This document shows positions 32,595 to 45,606 of a stretch of 64,000 bases of DNA, in pieces (position 1 is the first letter of the stretch; each line of letters begins with the position of its first letter). Below the pieces are notes generated by a model. That model was given only the letters and a program-made list of their open reading frames with translations. It had not been told where the DNA came from and did not search any database. A program made the translations under genes and the position numbers. Origin of the DNA: Phragmitibacter flavus (lineage in GTDB: Bacteria > Verrucomicrobiota > Verrucomicrobiia > Verrucomicrobiales > Verrucomicrobiaceae); the NCBI RefSeq assembly GCF_005780165.1, contig NZ_VAUV01000017.1:1-64000 (forward strand), in the 5' to 3' direction.

Positions 32595-35219
32595 CTACGG
32601 ACTCCCCAGTCCCACAGGCTCCGACAACGCCGGAAGCAATGGCGTCACCGTCGGTTGAAGCACCGATTCCACTGGCGTCGCCGTCACACTGGATTTTCGG
32701 ACCGGTTGGCCAGACGGATCGACCAGTTTTGCGGTCACAAAGATCATCAGATTGCGCTTGAAGTGGTCCTCCGCCTTGCTCTGGAACAGTTGACCAAGAA
32801 ACGGGAGGTCGCCGAGCACCGGCACTTTGTCTTCCACATCCTGCACGTCCTCCCTGATAAGTCCGCCCAACGCCACGGTATGGCCATCCCAAAGAGTTAC
32901 CGAAGTCGTCACCTTGCGAGTAGAAAACACCGGCTGCTCAATCTTGTTCTCCGTCAACACCAGCGTCGTCGGATTCCCCAGCGCGTCGGTGGCGGTGGTT
33001 TGAATGGGGCTGCCATAGTTGATGAATCCTTCGAACTCGGTCACTTCAGGAGCCAGGTTCAGATCAATGGTGTAGCCATCTGGGCCAATCACCGGATCGA
33101 CCTCCATGCGCACGCCTACCGGCCGCATCTCGAACGCGGTCGGCGTGGTGGGAGTGACCGGATAGGACGAGGAACTTCCGCCAGTGACACTTCCATCGGT
33201 CGAGGTGCTGCCGACGGTCTGTGGAATTTGCGGCGGATCAAACTCGGTCGGATAGATAAATTCGCGAATGACTTCAATGACCGCGCGCTGTCCGGAACGG
33301 CAGGTCACGCTCGGTGCACTCATCAAATCCACCCCCTTCTTCTGGCTGAGAGCGCGGATGACGACCTGGAACTGCGGATCGGTAAACACGCCAGCGAGCG
33401 AAAAAATACCGGGCGAGACACCCGCGGCGGCGGAAGCTCCAGACAACAGCCCATCAATCGAGTCCGGTGTAATCGCGGAGGAACCACTGCGATTGCCCGA
33501 AGTAACGGGATACTGACCAGTGGCGACGCCATCTTGCGAAAACGAATAATCAGAACTGGTGGCGCTGGTGGTGGATGCGTTGCCGGAGGTGCCGCCACCG
33601 CCAAAAACGCTTTCGCCACCGATGTTGAACTGACCAAGCAACCAGTCGAAGCCGAGTTCATCGGTATTCTTTTGGGTCACTTCCACAAACTTCGTGGTGA
33701 TGTAAATCTGTTGGGGGATTTTTTTCCGAATGCTGTCCACATAGGCTTCAATTGCATCAAGGTTTGGCTGGGTGTTGCGCACAATCAGCTGCGAGGTTGA
33801 AGTGACAAAGTTGGCGGAGGCACCTTCCGGAAAAGGGATACCGCTCGCTTTCAACACGTCGATCGCCGTGGCACGAGATCCGATGGTTGCAGTTCCCGCG
33901 CCACCTCCACCCCCGGCAGCAGCGAACGGATCAGCAGGAGCCGCTGCCCCAGCTGCATCCCCACCAGAAGCACCGCTAAGGAAATCGGGCGGGACTAGGA
34001 ACATCCGGGTATACTGCTCATCGCCTACTTCAGAAAGAGGAACCACCACAACGGCGAATTTTTCCACCTTGTATTTCATGTTGGCGAGTTCAGTGATGTA
34101 ACGAAGCGCTTCGTCCATCGGCACTTCTTTCAAGTCCAGGCTGATGGTTGCAATCAAAGGTGCTGCCCCCTGACGAAGGATCAAGTTAACTCCCTTTTTG
34201 CCTGGATCGCGCTCTTCAGTATCGAAATCACGACTTTTGATGCGCAGGAATTCGATGGCTTCATCAATGCTGGCACTCGAAAAGTTCACGCTTGGGAAAA
34301 TGATGCTGCGCATTTTCTGACTGTAGTAGGCCGAATCATCCGTGGTGGTTCCATAGGCACTGGCAACATCCTGAATGAGCGCTGAAGGAACCTGCTCTTC
34401 CCACGCTTGATTCACGTCGTTAAGCATTTTGGCACGACGCTGGTCACGGGCCGTCTCAAAGTAGTTCTGGCGATTCATCTCCACCTGTTCCATGCCTCGG
34501 CGCGCGGCGCTGTTGTAAGGGTCAATGCGCAGCACATCCTGGAACGTGTTGTTGGCGTTGTCGTAATCACCAAGATTCACGTAACTGTATGCCATCTGCA
34601 TTAGCTTGATGACTTCACTCACGTCGGCCATGTGCGCAGGGGTCAATGCTGGCTCGTAACGTCCAGGGTCATCCAGATGCTCAAGCAACGTTTTTGCATC
34701 GGCACCTTCCGGGTGGATCGCAATCGCCTCCTGAACTAGCAAGCGGGCCTCTGCATAAGCCCCAATGGCGGCGCGCTCGCGGGCGAGGCAGACGGAGGCC
34801 TCACCAAACTTCTGTTTCACCAAGGATCGCCATGGCTCTGACATGGGTGCATCAGGCAGCCAATCCAGGGCCATCTTGTATTCAGTGAGCGCACCTTCGA
34901 AGTTTTTATCATCCATCAACTGGTCACCTCTTTCAATTGCGCTTTGGGCGTCCGCAACACGCTGTTGCCTGCGAACGATCTCACGTTCTGCCACGGCAGA
35001 AACGCCATCCGGACTGCCTGCATGGAGTGCCGAAACGAGAGTGAGTGCCACTGCTCCGAAACAAACCACCGGCTTGACCGTCCACAAACTCCCTTTCGAC
35101 GAAGGTCGAGGTCGATGGTGTTGATTGTCCTGAACAGACTGTGGATCTCGGTTGATCCCGGCTGAAAGCATGGGGGGCAAACTCGGGCCGCCATCGTCGA
35201 ACGCAGTGAGGAATTCCAT
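32595..35219 (-). CDS. Secretin (PilQ/GspD-type outer-membrane channel)
   Basis: An 874-residue secretin resembling the verrucomicrobial Amuc_1098-type pilus channel. After a hydrophobic segment (KPVVCFGAVALTLVSAL) come TPR-like helices (about residues 85-260, including YSYVNLGDYDNANNTFQDVL), then N-domains (PFPEGASANFVTSTSQLIVRN) and the C-terminal secretin domain. That domain carries LMSAPSVTCRSGQRA, VGVRMEVDPVIG and the signature VPVLGDLPFLGQLFQSK. It would form the outer-membrane ring of a type II secretion or type IV pilus machine. No other machine genes are adjacent. The cassette at 38.9-44.0 kb supplies pseudopilin-like proteins that could use it. Confidence 0.88.
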   Translation of the reverse strand: MEFLTAFDDGGPSLPPMLSAGINRDPQSVQDNQHHRPRPSSKGSLWTVKPVVCFGAVALTLVSALHAGSPDGVSAVAEREIVRRQQRVADAQSAIERGDQLMDDKNFEGALTEYKMALDWLPDAPMSEPWRSLVKQKFGEASVCLARERAAIGAYAEARLLVQEAIAIHPEGADAKTLLEHLDDPGRYEPALTPAHMADVSEVIKLMQMAYSYVNLGDYDNANNTFQDVLRIDPYNSAARRGMEQVEMNRQNYFETARDQRRAKMLNDVNQAWEEQVPSALIQDVASAYGTTTDDSAYYSQKMRSIIFPSVNFSSASIDEAIEFLRIKSRDFDTEERDPGKKGVNLILRQGAAPLIATISLDLKEVPMDEALRYITELANMKYKVEKFAVVVVPLSEVGDEQYTRMFLVPPDFLSGASGGDAAGAAAPADPFAAAGGGGGAGTATIGSRATAIDVLKASGIPFPEGASANFVTSTSQLIVRNTQPNLDAIEAYVDSIRKKIPQQIYITTKFVEVTQKNTDELGFDWLLGQFNIGGESVFGGGGTSGNASTTSATSSDYSFSQDGVATGQYPVTSGNRSGSSAITPDSIDGLLSGASAAAGVSPGIFSLAGVFTDPQFQVVIRALSQKKGVDLMSAPSVTCRSGQRAVIEVIREFIYPTEFDPPQIPQTVGSTSTDGSVTGGSSSSYPVTPTTPTAFEMRPVGVRMEVDPVIGPDGYTIDLNLAPEVTEFEGFINYGSPIQTTATDALGNPTTLVLTENKIEQPVFSTRKVTTSVTLWDGHTVALGGLIREDVQDVEDKVPVLGDLPFLGQLFQSKAEDHFKRNLMIFVTAKLVDPSGQPVRKSSVTATPVESVLQPTVTPLLPALSEPVGLGSP

Positions 35220-37777: not shown

Positions 37778-38656
37778 ATGCCCAATCCACCATTCCACGA
37801 AAACAGCTCTACTTTCAGAATCCTTGCCGGGATTTCCTCTACAGAAAAAATCACCCGCTCAGGTAAAACCTTGTCCCTCTTTTCCGCACTCGCAATAGTT
37901 ACTATGGGATGGATGGGCACAGCACAAGGGGCAACGGTATTGTATTTCCAAGGATTTGAGGATGTCGCGCCAACAAACGCCTGGAATTATGCCATCGGCA
38001 ATTCCACTGTGACACAGGTCGGCACACTAGCCACGAGCGGCCAGGTTCCTCTAGATCAGGGTGTGTTGGCAGGAGACAAATCGCTTCAACACAGCAATCG
38101 TGTCAATGGCACTGGAGTTTTGGGGACCGTTACTTTCTCCTCAGTCGATCTGACCCAGTTTTCGGGCCTATACACCGGTCTCTACATTGAAGTGCGTTTA
38201 TCCAGCACCGGCACCTCAGCGAATGGAAACGATACGGGCGATTATTTTCGCATGTTTTCCTCCATCAATGGCGCTGCATTTGAAACTGACTCCGCTGCCA
38301 ATGCCGATATTTCATTGGCAGGAAGAAGCAATGCTAGGTGGGGATTCAACGCAGCGCCGCTCTCCCCAAACCCCCCAGCTACCGTCGCCGCAGGAGGCAA
38401 CCTTCAGCTTCAATCTCCCCCAGTAGGAGGTGGAACCAATGACAACAACTATTCCACGTTTCGAATTAATCTCGATGATTCCGCTTCATCGATTGCCCTT
38501 CGCCTAAACTTCCTAAATGACTCGTCAGGAGAGTTCTGGAACGTCGACAACGTAGCCATCTACGGAACTTTGGTTCCAGAACCCTCCAAAATGGTCCTTG
38601 TCGTGTTCGGATTAACGGCAGCATGCATACATCGCCGCAGGTCAAAAACCTGCTGA
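37778..38656 (+). CDS. PEP-CTERM sorting-domain exported protein
   Basis: A 292-residue exported protein. A hydrophobic signal region (SLFSALAIVTMGWMGTAQG) is followed by a beta-rich extracellular domain (ATVLYFQGFEDV onward) without catalytic motifs. The C-terminus is a PEP-CTERM signal: VPEPS, a hydrophobic stretch VLVVFGLTAACI, then basic HRRRS. Such proteins are processed by an exosortase and displayed with exopolysaccharide. No exosortase is in the window. The 275-bp gap upstream contains a 7-bp inverted pair ATTGTGA/TCACAAT (about 37630-37665) but no recognised promoter. Confidence 0.85.
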   Translation: MPNPPFHENSSTFRILAGISSTEKITRSGKTLSLFSALAIVTMGWMGTAQGATVLYFQGFEDVAPTNAWNYAIGNSTVTQVGTLATSGQVPLDQGVLAGDKSLQHSNRVNGTGVLGTVTFSSVDLTQFSGLYTGLYIEVRLSSTGTSANGNDTGDYFRMFSSINGAAFETDSAANADISLAGRSNARWGFNAAPLSPNPPATVAAGGNLQLQSPPVGGGTNDNNYSTFRINLDDSASSIALRLNFLNDSSGEFWNVDNVAIYGTLVPEPSKMVLVVFGLTAACIHRRRSKTC

Positions 38657-38898: not shown

Positions 38899-41886
38899 TC
38901 ACGGCATAAGATTACGAAAGTAGATTGTCCGAAACTGCACTTCGTCATCGTTTGGATTTTGGGTGTTCCGATTATTTAGATACCGTTCCACCACTGCCTG
39001 CTGTCTTTGCTCGGCCGTCACGCGCAACCTTCCATTGCGGGTCTGTTTCAGCGATTGGCCAACGGTATAAATGCTAAACACGCCACCCCGCGTCGTGATG
39101 AGACTGGCAATTTCTCTCATCAACGCCTCGGAAGCCTCGCCGCCATCGGCCACCCCTTTGATCTCACAAATCTCTCCGGGCGTGTCGTAGGCATTTCCCA
39201 AGTCTCCTCCGCCGCTTGCCGCGGTCCAGGGGTAACCATAGACCTTGCCCTTCTGGTGTTCCCCATCCGCCAGCACTTGATGATAAATGTTGGAGGCCAC
39301 CTCGCTGGCTGGATGCCGCAATGCTGATGAACCCGCCACCAGCGCCACCAACCCTCGATCTCTCGCCAGATGCTCGAAAGGCAGCACATGCGAGTTCACA
39401 TTAATCCGTCCCCCCACCGATGTGCCGTGCGGCTTGAGCATCTCATTGGAAGCTGCGCCAAAAGAATTCGGCACCGTGAACAAGTCCAGCAATGCCCAGT
39501 CCGGCAACACGCTGGCATCTGGATAGTTGTTGGGTTGCAACCGCAACGTCCTCCAAGGTGTGCTTCCAGAATAAGCATCGGTTCCCGTCACCACATAACC
39601 CAGTTCGCCCACCGAACTCATCAGCCCGTTGTCATTCTGAGCATCGTTCACGCCAAAGCCTTTGGGTGGCGGCATGTAGAGGCTCGCATCAGTCAACAAG
39701 CCATTCGCATCCGTATCCTGCTGCGGCTTCACATCCAGGGGCGGCCTGCCGAGCGTGGAACGAGAATTGATATTGCCCAAAGAGTTGGCACCCGCAGTGT
39801 TGGGCTGCCAGTCACTGGAGTGTCCGTTGGCACGTGGATCGTCAGTTTCCAGTGTCAGCATGGCCGACATTGGAGTCGTCGATGGATCACTGGTCCGGTA
39901 ATTCAACGATCCCGATTGCGGACTCAACAGCAAACGCGGTCGTCTTCCCAGACTGGTCAATATGCCATTCAGATTGGTGGTCGAACGATACGCCGCCATT
40001 CTCACGTTGGCATTGGGCTGTTGAACGTAAGACTTGTCACGATAAAACATCTTCGTCACCACCACCCGTTTTCCCGGCATCAGCATGGTCTGGTTCGGCC
40101 CCTCACCGCCGGTCAGATCTGAGCGAAAAATACGCACGGCATCCAGCGTCCCCTGCATGTTAACAAGATTACCCCTGGGACTTGGAAAATAACAAACATG
40201 GCTGTTCGCGCTAACTCCCGTAATCCCCAACACCCACCCCATCGAACTGTTTGCGGCGGGCTGCGGCGCCAGATCAGGAACCAAATCAATCCCCTCTTCC
40301 ACCCCGTAGCTTTCTGGAAGATAGAACTCTGCGGTGTAGTAACATTTATAAAGCGACTTGCCCGCAGGCCAGCCGGCAGGACGAGGTGTCGGCTGCGGCG
40401 TGGGATCTTTCTCAACATACATCCCCAACTCGGTGAAGTAGGGCGACCGGCTCACCCCTTGATAGCTATCGGTTGCCGCATAGGCATGCGTCGCGTGCAG
40501 CGTATACTTGCCATCCGGTGCCACTCCGAATCGAAGCGGCGCAATGATATCCAGCGAGGATTCTTTGGCACGAACATAGTCGATGATGTTCACAATGATC
40601 TGCGCCAGCCGGATGTCACTGTCGAGGCTGCCAGGATAATACTTGTCTTTGAAACTTACGCCGGGAGCAATTGGCCAGTTCTTTTCACTGATGTAGCGGA
40701 GCAGATCACGCACCACCGCATCAAACTTGTTGGGAACCACCTGCTGACCTGTGGGATCATTCAGCCAATCCTGCTGACCGCCCGCAAGAAAATCCAAATC
40801 GCCCGGATCGCTTTCATCCGCAGCAACGTCATCCCTCATGATATCAATGAACTTCCTCGCGTAAGATCCATCGGGATTCTTTGGCACCAGATCACGATTG
40901 GTGGTCAGCATGATGCGTTCCTCTCCAAAAAACGTCGTGTCGGGATCGTGATTGTAATGCGTCAGCTCAAACTTGTTATACGCCAGCATGTCCGACAATC
41001 CCGGAACCTCTGGCTCCAGTTGCCTCGCATCGGCAAAAGTATTGAAGTATCTTGCAGGCGAAGCCACGGTCCATTGATGCAACGCATCCGCCATGGCTTC
41101 CGTCAATCCCGTTCCACCAGGCAAACTTAGCGCCGTCAAGTTGATCCAACTTGGATGCGACTTTGGATTGCGGTTCACCAGTGAGGTGGACGACGTGTCC
41201 AGATTCCTTTTCCACGCCAGATTGTAATTGATCTTGCTGCTTTCATCGTCTGCCCAATATGCGAACCGTCCAACCAGTGGATTCGCCGCATCCGTCAGCA
41301 CCGGCTCTTCGGCGAAATCGAATGACCGGTCCCCCGTGTCAGAGTTTTGACGCACGTAGACCCACTTCAGCCTCAAGGCCACCGGTTCGCCCGTGGCTGG
41401 ATCCACGCGATCGGTGATCAACCGCGTCGAGACGAGGCTCTCAGATACCATCGGAGCATTGAGATCGGGCCCCTGGAAGATCGGATCACTGTAAGTTGTT
41501 GCCAACGGCGCTCCTGAAGAAAGTTCAACGCGACGTGCCAACAGCTTTTGATCCGCCGGAGGATCGTTGGGGACAATCAATGCCCCGGGTTGCGTCAGCC
41601 AGTTACGCCGCAATCGGGTATGATCCTCCACCGACTGCCCCTCCGCGCGCGCCGGATCCACCGTCTCTCTTTGCAAAGTAGCAATCACCCTCTCCATCCC
41701 CTCCCTCGCAAACAAACCCGCTTTGGTCCGGTCCAGATGACCTCCGGCCGAGGTGTGGTCGAATTTCGCCGATTCAAAATAAGCCACCACCATCAAGGTC
41801 AGCAGCGCAACAAAAAACACCGTCACCACCAACGCGGTGCCCCGACGGGAAAACAACAAAGACGGACGGTGGGAAAAATGTTTCAT
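38899..41886 (-). CDS. Verru_Chthon cassette protein A (GspK-like large pseudopilin)
   Basis: A 995-residue protein, the last and largest member of the four-gene cassette. The N-terminus has a short basic leader ending RRG, then TALVVTVFFVALLTLMVVAYFES. This is a class III signal without the usual Glu5, as in GspK of type II secretion. The next helix is rich in Ala and Glu (AGLFAREGMERVIATLQ), also like GspK. The huge C-terminal region has no assigned fold. It overlaps cassette C by four bases. By analogy it would cap a pseudopilus tip. Confidence 0.88.
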   Translation of the reverse strand: MKHFSHRPSLLFSRRGTALVVTVFFVALLTLMVVAYFESAKFDHTSAGGHLDRTKAGLFAREGMERVIATLQRETVDPARAEGQSVEDHTRLRRNWLTQPGALIVPNDPPADQKLLARRVELSSGAPLATTYSDPIFQGPDLNAPMVSESLVSTRLITDRVDPATGEPVALRLKWVYVRQNSDTGDRSFDFAEEPVLTDAANPLVGRFAYWADDESSKINYNLAWKRNLDTSSTSLVNRNPKSHPSWINLTALSLPGGTGLTEAMADALHQWTVASPARYFNTFADARQLEPEVPGLSDMLAYNKFELTHYNHDPDTTFFGEERIMLTTNRDLVPKNPDGSYARKFIDIMRDDVAADESDPGDLDFLAGGQQDWLNDPTGQQVVPNKFDAVVRDLLRYISEKNWPIAPGVSFKDKYYPGSLDSDIRLAQIIVNIIDYVRAKESSLDIIAPLRFGVAPDGKYTLHATHAYAATDSYQGVSRSPYFTELGMYVEKDPTPQPTPRPAGWPAGKSLYKCYYTAEFYLPESYGVEEGIDLVPDLAPQPAANSSMGWVLGITGVSANSHVCYFPSPRGNLVNMQGTLDAVRIFRSDLTGGEGPNQTMLMPGKRVVVTKMFYRDKSYVQQPNANVRMAAYRSTTNLNGILTSLGRRPRLLLSPQSGSLNYRTSDPSTTPMSAMLTLETDDPRANGHSSDWQPNTAGANSLGNINSRSTLGRPPLDVKPQQDTDANGLLTDASLYMPPPKGFGVNDAQNDNGLMSSVGELGYVVTGTDAYSGSTPWRTLRLQPNNYPDASVLPDWALLDLFTVPNSFGAASNEMLKPHGTSVGGRINVNSHVLPFEHLARDRGLVALVAGSSALRHPASEVASNIYHQVLADGEHQKGKVYGYPWTAASGGGDLGNAYDTPGEICEIKGVADGGEASEALMREIASLITTRGGVFSIYTVGQSLKQTRNGRLRVTAEQRQQAVVERYLNNRNTQNPNDDEVQFRTIYFRNLMP

Positions 41887-42842
41887 CGGGCGTTCTGGAG
41901 CTGAACTTGAGTGGTGTAAATGCGGATGCCCGGAAGCAATCGCTTGAGGTCTTCGCGATTTGCCGAAGCCGTTTCGAGCCGGTTGAGGAACTGCGCCGCA
42001 TCCCTCGTATTCGTCTCCCGGGAGAGCTCCCTCATGTCATCTGCCACCACGGCGAGGCGGGACGCATATCTCGAATCAATTTGAGCCAGGGAAACCTGCA
42101 CCGTGGCTGGAAGTCGACGCTGCTCCGTCACCGTCCCACCACCCGTCGTCGGGAACTGGCAGTTATATCCCACTCGTGAGTCATACTCCCTCGGCAGCTC
42201 AACACCGTCCAATCCAAACGACCGTATCCAAAGTCCCAGCACATATTCCGCAAACAGTCCTTTGTAACCTGCGTCCACATCTGCCGGCTTGACCACCTCA
42301 TCCACCACGCTGGAACTTACCCACAAATCTGGATTGGCATCCTGATAGATAAGAAATTGCGGATTTGGTTTCAGCACGCCATCAATCTTCACCGAAGGAT
42401 TCACGAAAAACCGGCACAACATCGGCACCGCGTTCTCCCACTTCACAAAATACCCCACCTGAGCGATCTCCCCGAAACTGGTTTCCCGAGCCAAAGGTGC
42501 CTGCCAGAAGATGCAATCGGCATTGCGATAGTCCGCCGATAGCCGGTCGACCGGTGGATTGATGATGAACTGAAGATTCGCCGGAGCGCCACCCGTCGAT
42601 TGGGCTACCGGCAGCAACGCCCCCTGCAATTCTGTCCCGATAAAATCCGCAATCGCGCGAACATTCCTCCGCCGCTCCGCATGCCCCTCACCGTTCAACC
42701 ACGCCTTGGATGTGCCGGTGAACATGATCGTAAACAACGTCATGATCACCGCCAGAATGGCCATCGCAATCATCAACTCCAACAGAGTGAAACCACGCGC
42801 ATCCCCGCTTCGGACTCTTCTAATAACGGGCGATGCTGGCAT
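41883..42842 (-). CDS. Verru_Chthon cassette protein C (GspJ-like pseudopilin)
   Basis: A 319-residue prepilin-like protein. The class III signal is ARGFTLLELMIAMAILAVIMTLF: Gly at -1, Phe at +1, Glu at +5. The following helix (NVRAIADFIGTELQGALLP) and a beta-rich C-terminus fit GspJ/PilW-type minor pseudopilins. ATGs at 42842 and 42881 are both possible; the shorter leader was preferred. The start lies inside the 3' end of cassette B and the stop overlaps the cassette A start, so translation is coupled along the operon. Confidence 0.85.
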   Translation of the reverse strand: MPASPVIRRVRSGDARGFTLLELMIAMAILAVIMTLFTIMFTGTSKAWLNGEGHAERRRNVRAIADFIGTELQGALLPVAQSTGGAPANLQFIINPPVDRLSADYRNADCIFWQAPLARETSFGEIAQVGYFVKWENAVPMLCRFFVNPSVKIDGVLKPNPQFLIYQDANPDLWVSSSVVDEVVKPADVDAGYKGLFAEYVLGLWIRSFGLDGVELPREYDSRVGYNCQFPTTGGGTVTEQRRLPATVQVSLAQIDSRYASRLAVVADDMRELSRETNTRDAAQFLNRLETASANREDLKRLLPGIRIYTTQVQLQNAR

Positions 42843-43344
42843 GAAAGATGGATTCTCCAGGACGAAGGTTGGGATCAGCATTCGCAGAAACCGGCCAGGT
42901 GAAGTGCAGTTTCACTTCAACAAGATTGGAGACACTGCCTGCGATCCTGCGAAAACCTTCATCCTCCGACTTTTCCACCACGCATTCAAAATGCGCCTTC
43001 GGATCTGTTGCCGCCAAAGTCCCTGACAATGGCACGCCTTCCTGAGTAAAATAATACACACTGTCCTCCATCGGGCCCGGGGCAGCGGCTTCAGCCATCG
43101 CCGACCACGGCTTCGACCGTCCCAAGGCATCAAACGGCACCACATGCAGATCGCCCACCACCATGCCCGTCATTGCGGCAAGCGCCGTGTCCTCACCCGC
43201 TTCTTCACTGGTATCCATTGCCAGGCTGAGCAATCCAACCACCGAAAGCAAGGCCACCGAAGCAATGCCCAGCGCCAAAGTCACTTCCGCGAGACTAAAT
43301 CCGGTGTTCGCTCCCCTTCCCCTTGCAGTCATCAACATCGACAT
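42820..43344 (-). CDS. Verru_Chthon cassette protein B (GspI-like pseudopilin)
   Basis: A 174-residue prepilin-like protein with leader ending NTG and mature start FSLAEVTLALGIASVALLSVVGLLSL (Glu at +5). The size and the short post-helix domain match GspI/PilV minor pseudopilins. Its ATG shares one base with the cassette D stop (TGATG), and its 3' end overlaps cassette C by about 23 bases. Confidence 0.85.
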   Translation of the reverse strand: MSMLMTARGRGANTGFSLAEVTLALGIASVALLSVVGLLSLAMDTSEEAGEDTALAAMTGMVVGDLHVVPFDALGRSKPWSAMAEAAAPGPMEDSVYYFTQEGVPLSGTLAATDPKAHFECVVEKSEDEGFRRIAGSVSNLVEVKLHFTWPVSANADPNLRPGESIFHASIARY

Positions 43345-44015
43345 CAGGGGCGGTTGATTTTGGCAAGCCCTGTCGCTCCAATGAGTGACACATCATAAAA
43401 ATTCCCGGGCGATCCATCACTCGTGGTATTCCGATATTTCATCACTGCTCCCTGCTTGACCCCCTCCACCAGTCGGATGCGCGCCGGACTCTCCGAATCA
43501 TGCAAACCTCCGTTCGGCAAAAACACCCTCAACGCACATGTGGCACTGGAAAGAGCGACCCCTTGATAGTCGAAAGGCAACGACCCCGATGCCGCATCCT
43601 CTGGAGCCAACGGCAACGGCACTCCCGCTTGAGAAACAAACGTGCAGGTGCGGCGATCCGCAAAATCCACCAACACCCCCGAAGGCAGCGCCTGCCATGG
43701 CGTGGCCTGGGTCCAGCCATTCGATGCATCGTATTCCATGATCGCCAAAGTGCGAAAATCGTCCTCCACCCCCAAATCCCCCAGCACCGCCAGCGCGGTT
43801 ACCGTGTTCTTCGTCATCGCCATCTGCCTCGCCTGCGCCGCAAGATGGGTTACCAGATTTCCAGCAGCCGTCAGTCCGGTCGATCCCACCAGTGCCGCCA
43901 TGGCAGGAGTCGCGATCGCGACCAGAAGTGCAATCAACGCCATTACCACAACCAACTCCAGCAACGAGAACGCTCTGGCACAAGCAGGAATAACGCGGTG
44001 GATGGTATTACGCAT
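43344..44015 (-). CDS. Verru_Chthon cassette protein D (GspH/FimT-like pseudopilin)
   Basis: A 223-residue prepilin-like protein, first gene of the cassette. The signal is CARAFSLLELVVVMALIALLVAI. Glu5 is present but residue -1 is Ala instead of the usual Gly. The helix continues LTAAGNLVTHLAAQARQMAMTKN, the typical FimT/GspH extension, before a beta domain. The promoter must lie in the AT-rich 44016-44307 gap, divergent from the LysM gene. Confidence 0.85.
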   Translation of the reverse strand: MRNTIHRVIPACARAFSLLELVVVMALIALLVAIATPAMAALVGSTGLTAAGNLVTHLAAQARQMAMTKNTVTALAVLGDLGVEDDFRTLAIMEYDASNGWTQATPWQALPSGVLVDFADRRTCTFVSQAGVPLPLAPEDAASGSLPFDYQGVALSSATCALRVFLPNGGLHDSESPARIRLVEGVKQGAVMKYRNTTSDGSPGNFYDVSLIGATGLAKINRP

Positions 44016-44307: not shown

Positions 44308-45606
44308 ATGCACTCGCTCAACATCCCTATCTATTCGATCGCGGTTGCTTTCTCCCTGGCTGCATCCCTTCCCGCAGCCAGTTCCCAAACCAAAAATCCG
44401 GTCTCCAAAACGTCCGGTCCTGTTCAGCACAAGGTCGCCAAAGGCGAAACCATGTGGAGCATTGCCCAGAAACACCAGACCAGCGTCGGCGAAATCATGG
44501 AGCACAATCGTCTCCAGTCCCATGTCGTTCGCGAAGGCATGAACCTGAAAATCCCTTCCCGGGAAGCTGTCAAACCGATCACTTCGACCACCTCTAACAA
44601 CACCTCTAACACCCCACGACCCACGACCCGCGAGTCCATTCACGTGGTGAAATCCGGCGAAACTTTCTGGACCATCGCCGAGAAATACAAAATCAATCCA
44701 CAGGCCCTTGCGCAGGCCAATCCCAACATCAATCCCAACCGACTCCATCCCGATATGGAGGTGACCGTTCCGCCTGCCCAGATTGCCTCTTCCGCACAGA
44801 AGACCACGCCACAAACCACTGCGAAACCCACCCGCACCAATCCCACACCACCGGTCGTGGCTGCCAGCGGTGAACACATTCTTGAACAAGGAGAGACCTT
44901 CTACTCCATCAGCAAAAAGCGCGGCATCAAACTCGCCGACCTTGTCGCGGCGAATCCGACCCTCAAACCAGAACGCCTCAAACCCGGCACCAAGATCAAC
45001 CTACCCGGCGGCACCGCCAACTCGACGAAACCCCAGCCCACCCTGACTTCGTCGCAAACACCCAAACCAGCGACCACCGCTCCGAAAACAACCACGGCCT
45101 CATCCAAACGTCACACCGTGGGCGAAGGAGACAGCATCGCCAGCATTGCCGAAAAACACTCCATCTCCACTGATCTGTTGTTGAAGCAAAACCGCCTCAC
45201 CGAAAGCGACTCCATCTACATCGGCGACGTCCTCACCATCCCCACGACTGCATCCGGGACAACTCCCACCCAGCAGAAGACCGCTTCCACCACGACCCCA
45301 ACAACAAACACGACCGCCAGCAACACTTCCAAACCCACAACGGCTACTGAAGCTCCAAGTCCTGCCACCGTGGAAACCTCTCCAGTAAAGCCCAAAGCCA
45401 ATGCTCCCCTTCACGTTGCTGAAGATGGAAGCATTCGCTCCTACATCGTCAGCCACGGTGAAACCGACGAAACCATCTGCGAAGCTTTTGGCATCACCAA
45501 AAAAGAACTCTTTGAGCACAACAAGCTCAGCCAGGGCACCCAACTCCGCCCCGGCGATGAAATCATGATTCCTGCGACCACGAAGAAAACCGTCGTGTCG
45601 CGGTAA
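44308..45606 (+). CDS. Exported protein with five LysM domains
   Basis: A 432-residue protein with a signal peptide (IYSIAVAFSLAASLPAASS) and five LysM units: about residues 32-80 (HKVAKGETMWSIA), 108-155 (HVVKSGETFWTIAEKY), 190-232 (HILEQGETFYSISKKRG), 268-315 (HTVGEGDSIASIAEKH) and 378-425 (YIVSHGETDETICEAFG). Thr/Pro/Ala-rich linkers separate them. LysM binds N-acetylglucosamine in peptidoglycan. No catalytic domain is present, so it likely scaffolds or anchors. It is divergent from the pseudopilin cassette across an AT-rich 292-bp gap. Confidence 0.9.
   Translation: MHSLNIPIYSIAVAFSLAASLPAASSQTKNPVSKTSGPVQHKVAKGETMWSIAQKHQTSVGEIMEHNRLQSHVVREGMNLKIPSREAVKPITSTTSNNTSNTPRPTTRESIHVVKSGETFWTIAEKYKINPQALAQANPNINPNRLHPDMEVTVPPAQIASSAQKTTPQTTAKPTRTNPTPPVVAASGEHILEQGETFYSISKKRGIKLADLVAANPTLKPERLKPGTKINLPGGTANSTKPQPTLTSSQTPKPATTAPKTTTASSKRHTVGEGDSIASIAEKHSISTDLLLKQNRLTESDSIYIGDVLTIPTTASGTTPTQQKTASTTTPTTNTTASNTSKPTTATEAPSPATVETSPVKPKANAPLHVAEDGSIRSYIVSHGETDETICEAFGITKKELFEHNKLSQGTQLRPGDEIMIPATTKKTVVSR

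Follow-up and report, generated by a model that had tools for sequence, protein, structure and literature searches.

Verrucomicrobiota is a phylum of abundant polysaccharide degraders. To our knowledge, no general signal is known by which type II secretion systems (T2SS) choose their cargo. In these systems GspH, GspI, GspJ and GspK (XcpU-V-W-X) are four minor pseudopilins, three of which carry Glu5 while the fourth lacks it. This four-subunit tip was described as critical for substrate binding, with XcpV-XcpW reported as its core pair (PMC6211770). The closest precedent for an enlarged, substrate-binding tip pilin of the GspK type is ComZ of the Thermus thermophilus PilA2-ComZ system, a pilin similar to GspK that contains a large inserted domain, binds DNA and is argued to be located at the pilus tip (PMC6561018). 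In Verruconatronum alginivorum, an alginate-induced cluster contains a PulG-like pseudopilin with 67 homologues, and export by a T2SS was proposed (PMC13274419). The NCBIfam families Verru_Chthon A, B, C and D (TIGR02600, 02598, 02599 and 02596) are named without a function, and no papers naming Verru_Chthon were found in the literature searched.

The window analysed here, a stretch of 64,000 nucleotides, belongs to contig 17 of a 5.9-Mb Verrucomicrobiota genome. In agreement with the preliminary description, it contains four overlapping genes, and the coordinates of their reading frames were confirmed, all on the minus strand: D (43344-44015, 223 aa), B (42820-43344, 174 aa), C (41883-42881, 332 aa) and A (38899-41886, 995 aa), with overlaps of 1 bp between D and B, 62 bp between B and C and 4 bp between C and A. 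The top NCBIfam matches of D, B, C and A are Verru_Chthon D, B, C and A, with E-values of 1e-10, 5e-13, 1e-16 and 7e-80, respectively; the locus is a tandem set of A, B, C and D genes of the Verru_Chthon type in Verrucomicrobiota. None of the four proteins reaches the curated cut-off of its family (41.9 against 70 for D, 61.2 against 256.5 for C, 269 against 332 for A and, narrowly, 49.6 against 51.4 for B). Hence, the cassette in the window is a divergent copy. Its A protein is a short, divergent version, 995 aa compared to the 1296 positions of the model, and its closest relatives, with ~37-47% identity, are found at two loci of the same genome (L033 and L034) and at ten loci elsewhere in Verrucomicrobiota (L075-L084). 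A protein with five LysM domains (44308-45606, plus strand) is encoded divergently from gene D at a distance of 292 bp.

All four proteins have a prepilin N-terminus, with predicted prepilin sites (marked by a slash) at CARA/FSLLE in D, ANTG/FSLAE in B, DARG/FTLLE in C and SRRG/TALVV in A. Glu5 is thus present in D, B and C, while A has Val5, as had been noticed before and as in the GspH-I-J-K set. The same pattern repeats in the other cassettes of the genome and in related loci, which argues against chance. Beyond the window, the D, B and C genes were chosen partly by their Glu5, so that the independent test lies in its absence from A: position 5 of the collected A proteins is I, M, L, T, V or A and never acidic.

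To compare the proteins with GspH, GspI, GspJ and GspK, predicted folds and profiles were used, the AlphaFold2 models resting on 58-60 divergent sequences. The model of C, a GspJ/PilW-type minor pseudopilin, has a pLDDT of 86 and shows a GspJ fold: it aligned with XcpW, EpsJ and GspJ from three species at Z 9.9-10.9, compared to Z ≤3 for unrelated structures, and the closest fold by Z was the Thermus pilin TTHA1219, within an overall range of Z 10-12. In a comparison with profiles of GspI, GspJ and GspK from verrucomicrobial T2SS loci, C matched GspJ best with 98.8%, and with 83.6% for its globular part. For A, the model (pLDDT 81.5, pTM 0.86) has a GspK fold, with Z scores of 12.0 and 11.0 for XcpX, the match at Z 12.0 aligning 266 of the 295 XcpX residues over model residues 17-993. 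After XcpX, the next structure was an Ig fold with Z 6.2 that covered only residues ~481-670. The Foldseek search with A was weak (top match GspK 3ci0_K, E 0.16), which can happen when insertions split a fold, and the A sequence found no match among PDB chains. In the profile comparison A was closest to GspK (96.7%), and the GspK model NF037980 by itself detected A proteins through the first 60-83 positions with E-values down to 2.4e-10. The Pfam model T2SSK (PF03934) was rejected as a GspK marker, as it spans only 63 positions and also matched Bacillus, Corynebacterium and Lactococcus controls; NF037980 was used instead. Given the XcpX fold and the GspK profile match, the best reading of A is a GspK that insertions have enlarged to about three times the size of GspK in the T2SS. 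The predicted Ig-like beta-sandwich at ~residues 480-670 (39877-40446, minus strand) is also the least conserved part of the protein, with 16.6% identity within the short-A subfamily, where most other blocks reach 29-46%. The assignment of C as GspJ and of A as a complete GspK into which a variable beta-sandwich is inserted is, at the level of predicted structures, well supported. ComZ likewise combines a GspK-like pilin with a big inserted domain, but its insert is a beta-solenoid in the pilin sheet that binds DNA, while that of A is Ig-like, and a multi-copy cassette was not reported there (PMC6561018).

The remaining two proteins were assigned mainly by their N-terminal profiles. B has GspI as its top match, narrowly ahead of GspJ (97.9% versus 97.8%), with the signal coming from the N-terminal part and none from the globular part. 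For D, which resembles the GspH/FimT type, the NCBIfam GspH model gave an E-value of 1e-4, below the cut-off, and the FimU match was weak; Pfam GspH was matched by 10 of 54 D homologues, the D protein of the window not being among them. B and D are candidate counterparts of GspI and GspH. Hence, the earlier reading of the four proteins as minor pseudopilins is supported by predicted folds and profiles for C and A, which do match GspJ and GspK, narrowly by profile for B, and through the GspH matches of its relatives for D.

The genome contains 15 A copies, two of them solitary (L028 on contig C9 and L031 on contig C2) and the others accompanied by B, C and D genes, and 339 related stretches were found in other genomes. 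The external set consists of the 80 loci most similar to A of the window, several of them being fragments; genes were called as the longest open reading frames. Among the 44 complete cassettes from the own and other genomes, the order D-B-C-A occurs 18 times, A-B-C-D 11 times, B-C-D-A 10 times and B-C-A-D five times. The proposed identity with the order gspH-I-J-K therefore holds for the subfamily of the window but not as a general rule, and only the succession of B and C is invariant (44/44), with A and D shifting around this pair. The constant adjacency fits B-C as a core pair like XcpV-XcpW, i.e. GspI-GspJ (PMC6211770). The preliminary description had also proposed that the tip can be swapped and has a giant GspK-like cap. 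Many copies in a modular arrangement are indeed present, and within the short-A subfamily the insert is the most variable region of A. A may decide what is bound or secreted, a proposal aided by the adjacency of exported-protein genes described below. Next to the solitary A gene on contig C2, a T2SSF-type platform protein is encoded on its own (L031:12472-13569), with no ATPase. On contig C6, a fifth pilin gene (L036:12555-13280, minus strand) is located upstream of a D-B-C-A cassette and resembles the major pseudopilin GspG (E 3e-9); this cassette may carry its own shaft subunit.

A reading to which we lean, with slightly better than even confidence, is that the cassette encodes an exchangeable tip, dedicated to the exoprotein of a neighbouring gene, and forms an alternative tip complex of a type IV filament with a shared engine. 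The genome contains several sets of assembly ATPase and platform genes, six secretins and a single prepilin peptidase, all of them outside the cassettes. The cassettes are not encoded alongside a T2SS engine (E, F, G, D), the ATPase and platform genes of the own genome lying on other contigs, and no secretin, GspE or GspF was found in the flanks (up to 10 kb) of any external cassette locus surveyed. At C9:259-271 kb there is one T2SS-like cluster that includes a GspK of its own. At L066:5850-9625 and L067:6400-10268, two near-parallel sets encode a 243/244-aa protein, a GspE-like ATPase and a GspF-like protein. No gene for a major pilin was called immediately next to these sets, which possibly represent a spare engine without a shaft.

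The window itself contains an orphan secretin (32595-35219, minus strand), which had been suggested as the channel of the cassette. It matches the family of the Amuc_1098-type type IV pilus secretins (NF042912, 1070 bits with a cut-off of 750). Its distance of 3.7 kb from A, the lack of pilM-N-O beside it and the fact that it is one of three Amuc_1098-type paralogues would fit a dedicated channel that forms a self-contained mini-system with the cassette, but the secretin and A are separated by a two-component system and by a PEP-CTERM gene on the opposite strand. As the other surveyed cassettes have no secretin in their flanks, its presence here is probably incidental, it probably lies outside the cassette, and we regard a dedicated channel as very improbable.

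The distribution of secretion and pilus genes among 57 genomes of the class, uncorrected for phylogeny, bears on the nature of the engine. GspK of the T2SS was found in 22 of 25 cassette genomes and in 18 of 32 without a cassette (p 0.018), leaving three cassette genomes without a detectable GspK, while the Amuc_1098-type secretin occurs in 25/25 and 22/32, respectively (p 0.0016). D-B-C-A could be the tip of an Amuc_1098-type pilus, with A, alone or with a neighbour protein, acting as an outward adhesin or receptor similar to the ComZ proposal, and with the large neighbour proteins as tip-displayed or co-regulated surface proteins. The secretin distribution, the three genomes without GspK, the ComZ precedent and the similarity of C to TTHA1219 agree with this. 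On the other hand, A matches GspK of the T2SS over its whole length, all six sampled genomes of a genus from the same order as the window (g12) have the Amuc_1098-type secretin but no cassette, and the subset of neighbour and partner proteins that was scanned contained no PilY1-like domain. Overall, we consider a pilus tip of this kind unlikely, though it is the most serious of the alternatives. As to the shared engine of the exchangeable tip, the hydrolase neighbours and the match of A to GspK over its full length speak for secretion; the association with the type IV pilus secretin and the ComZ precedent speak for a pilus.

Compared to GspH-I-J-K of the T2SS, the cassettes differ in being apart from engine genes, in many copies per genome, variable in order and beside genes for exported proteins. 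New here is this last property, the non-random adjacency to genes for large exported proteins. With PEP-CTERM proteins detected by pattern, 22 PEP-CTERM or autotransporter-repeat (PATR) genes lie within 500 bp of a cassette edge, where the density at 0.5-10 kb would predict 2.2 (a rate ratio of 10), and 20 of the 22 are on the strand of the cassette, compared to 14/28 farther out. The excess is limited to the first 500 bp and falls to background level by 0.5-2 kb. In the own genome, a PEP-CTERM gene lies no more than 500 bp from 9 of the 15 cassettes, compared to 0.41 in random placements (p ≤0.0003). The cassettes might instead have no specificity for a cargo and be interchangeable, redundant or regulatory primers of one pseudopilus that diverged after duplication, their neighbours being co-located in recently gained surface-protein islands. 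Both the cassette and the PEP-CTERM families are indeed multi-copy and widely scattered, and cassettes are also found near unrelated genes; islands alone, however, would not yield an excess so narrow and strand-specific, which makes this explanation improbable.

For the exchangeable tip, the occurrence of about 15 sets in this genome, most of them next to the gene of a large exported protein, suggests interchangeable heads that each handle their own cargo and share a secretion or pilus motor. Adjacency is, however, not interaction, and 65 of the 93 cassettes or fragments have no PEP-CTERM or PATR gene within 1.3 kb. Several of these 65 adjoin other secreted proteins, and the neighbours found where PEP-CTERM or PATR genes are missing include a GH5 cellulase, GH2, Calx-beta/PKD and BNR-propeller proteins. 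When large neighbours were tested crudely for signal peptides, there was no significant excess (24/41 versus 55/116, p 0.28). The candidate partner in the window, a secreted 292-aa protein with a PEP-CTERM sorting tail (37778-38656, plus strand; TIGR02595 at or over the cut-off), is convergent with A at a distance of 243 bp, so that the two are not co-transcribed, and it resembles other partners only in its C-terminal tail. The partner gene at L033 (367 aa) is 48% identical to the partner at L081/L082, so that this pairing is common to different genomes.

From these observations we infer that the four proteins assemble as a tip, that A recognises the cargo and that one engine is shared. D, B, C and A would be the counterparts of GspH, GspI, GspJ and GspK, and the precursors of all four would be processed by the prepilin peptidase, the one found being encoded elsewhere in the genome. 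By analogy to the T2SS, B and C would act as the core pair, bring in A, which lacks Glu5, and prime a short filament that D joins and that is powered by an assembly ATPase and a platform whose genes lie elsewhere. The fast-varying beta-sandwich of A would face outward and hold or push the cognate large exported protein from the adjoining gene, usually a PEP-CTERM or autotransporter-repeat protein and elsewhere a glycoside hydrolase. The strict form of such a plug-in architecture, with one filament engine per cell, a dozen or more interchangeable tip cassettes and recognition of the adjacent exoprotein by the A insert, is put forward tentatively, at somewhat less than even confidence. If each tip is matched to its adjoining exoprotein, the exchange of tips between cargoes would already have been tried hundreds of times in nature, recognition could be readable from the paired sequence variation of tip and cargo, and four families annotated only as 'Verru_Chthon cassette' would gain a function.

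Further features were observed around the cassettes. At L024:5958-12182 (minus strand, contig C8), a PATR/PEP-CTERM gene runs in frame and without a stop into A, giving a frame of 2074 aa in which A retains its own ATG with GGGAGGGG just upstream; this may be a fusion or merely a missing stop. Three exosortase matches and more than 100 PEP-CTERM matches were counted in the own genome. The idea that cassette-linked proteins form a PEP-CTERM subtype of their own was rejected, as their tails look like those of unlinked ones. Two-component regulators are found within ~3 kb of 4 of the 15 cassettes of the own genome (35152-37502 in the window, L024:32-3630, L025:1284-4018 and L035:1437-5098), possibly reflecting cassette-specific sensing; with eight two-component genes within 4.5 kb of cassettes and five farther away, the numbers are too small for a claim. 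The V. alginivorum pseudopilin is comparable in being multi-copy, verrucomicrobial and tied to a polysaccharide-degradation cluster, but it is a single PulG (GspG)-like gene without an H-I-J-K set (PMC13274419). In other genomes, the cassettes at L131, L138, L143 and L150 adjoin a LacI-type repressor and sugar-related genes, as if located in polysaccharide-utilisation loci.
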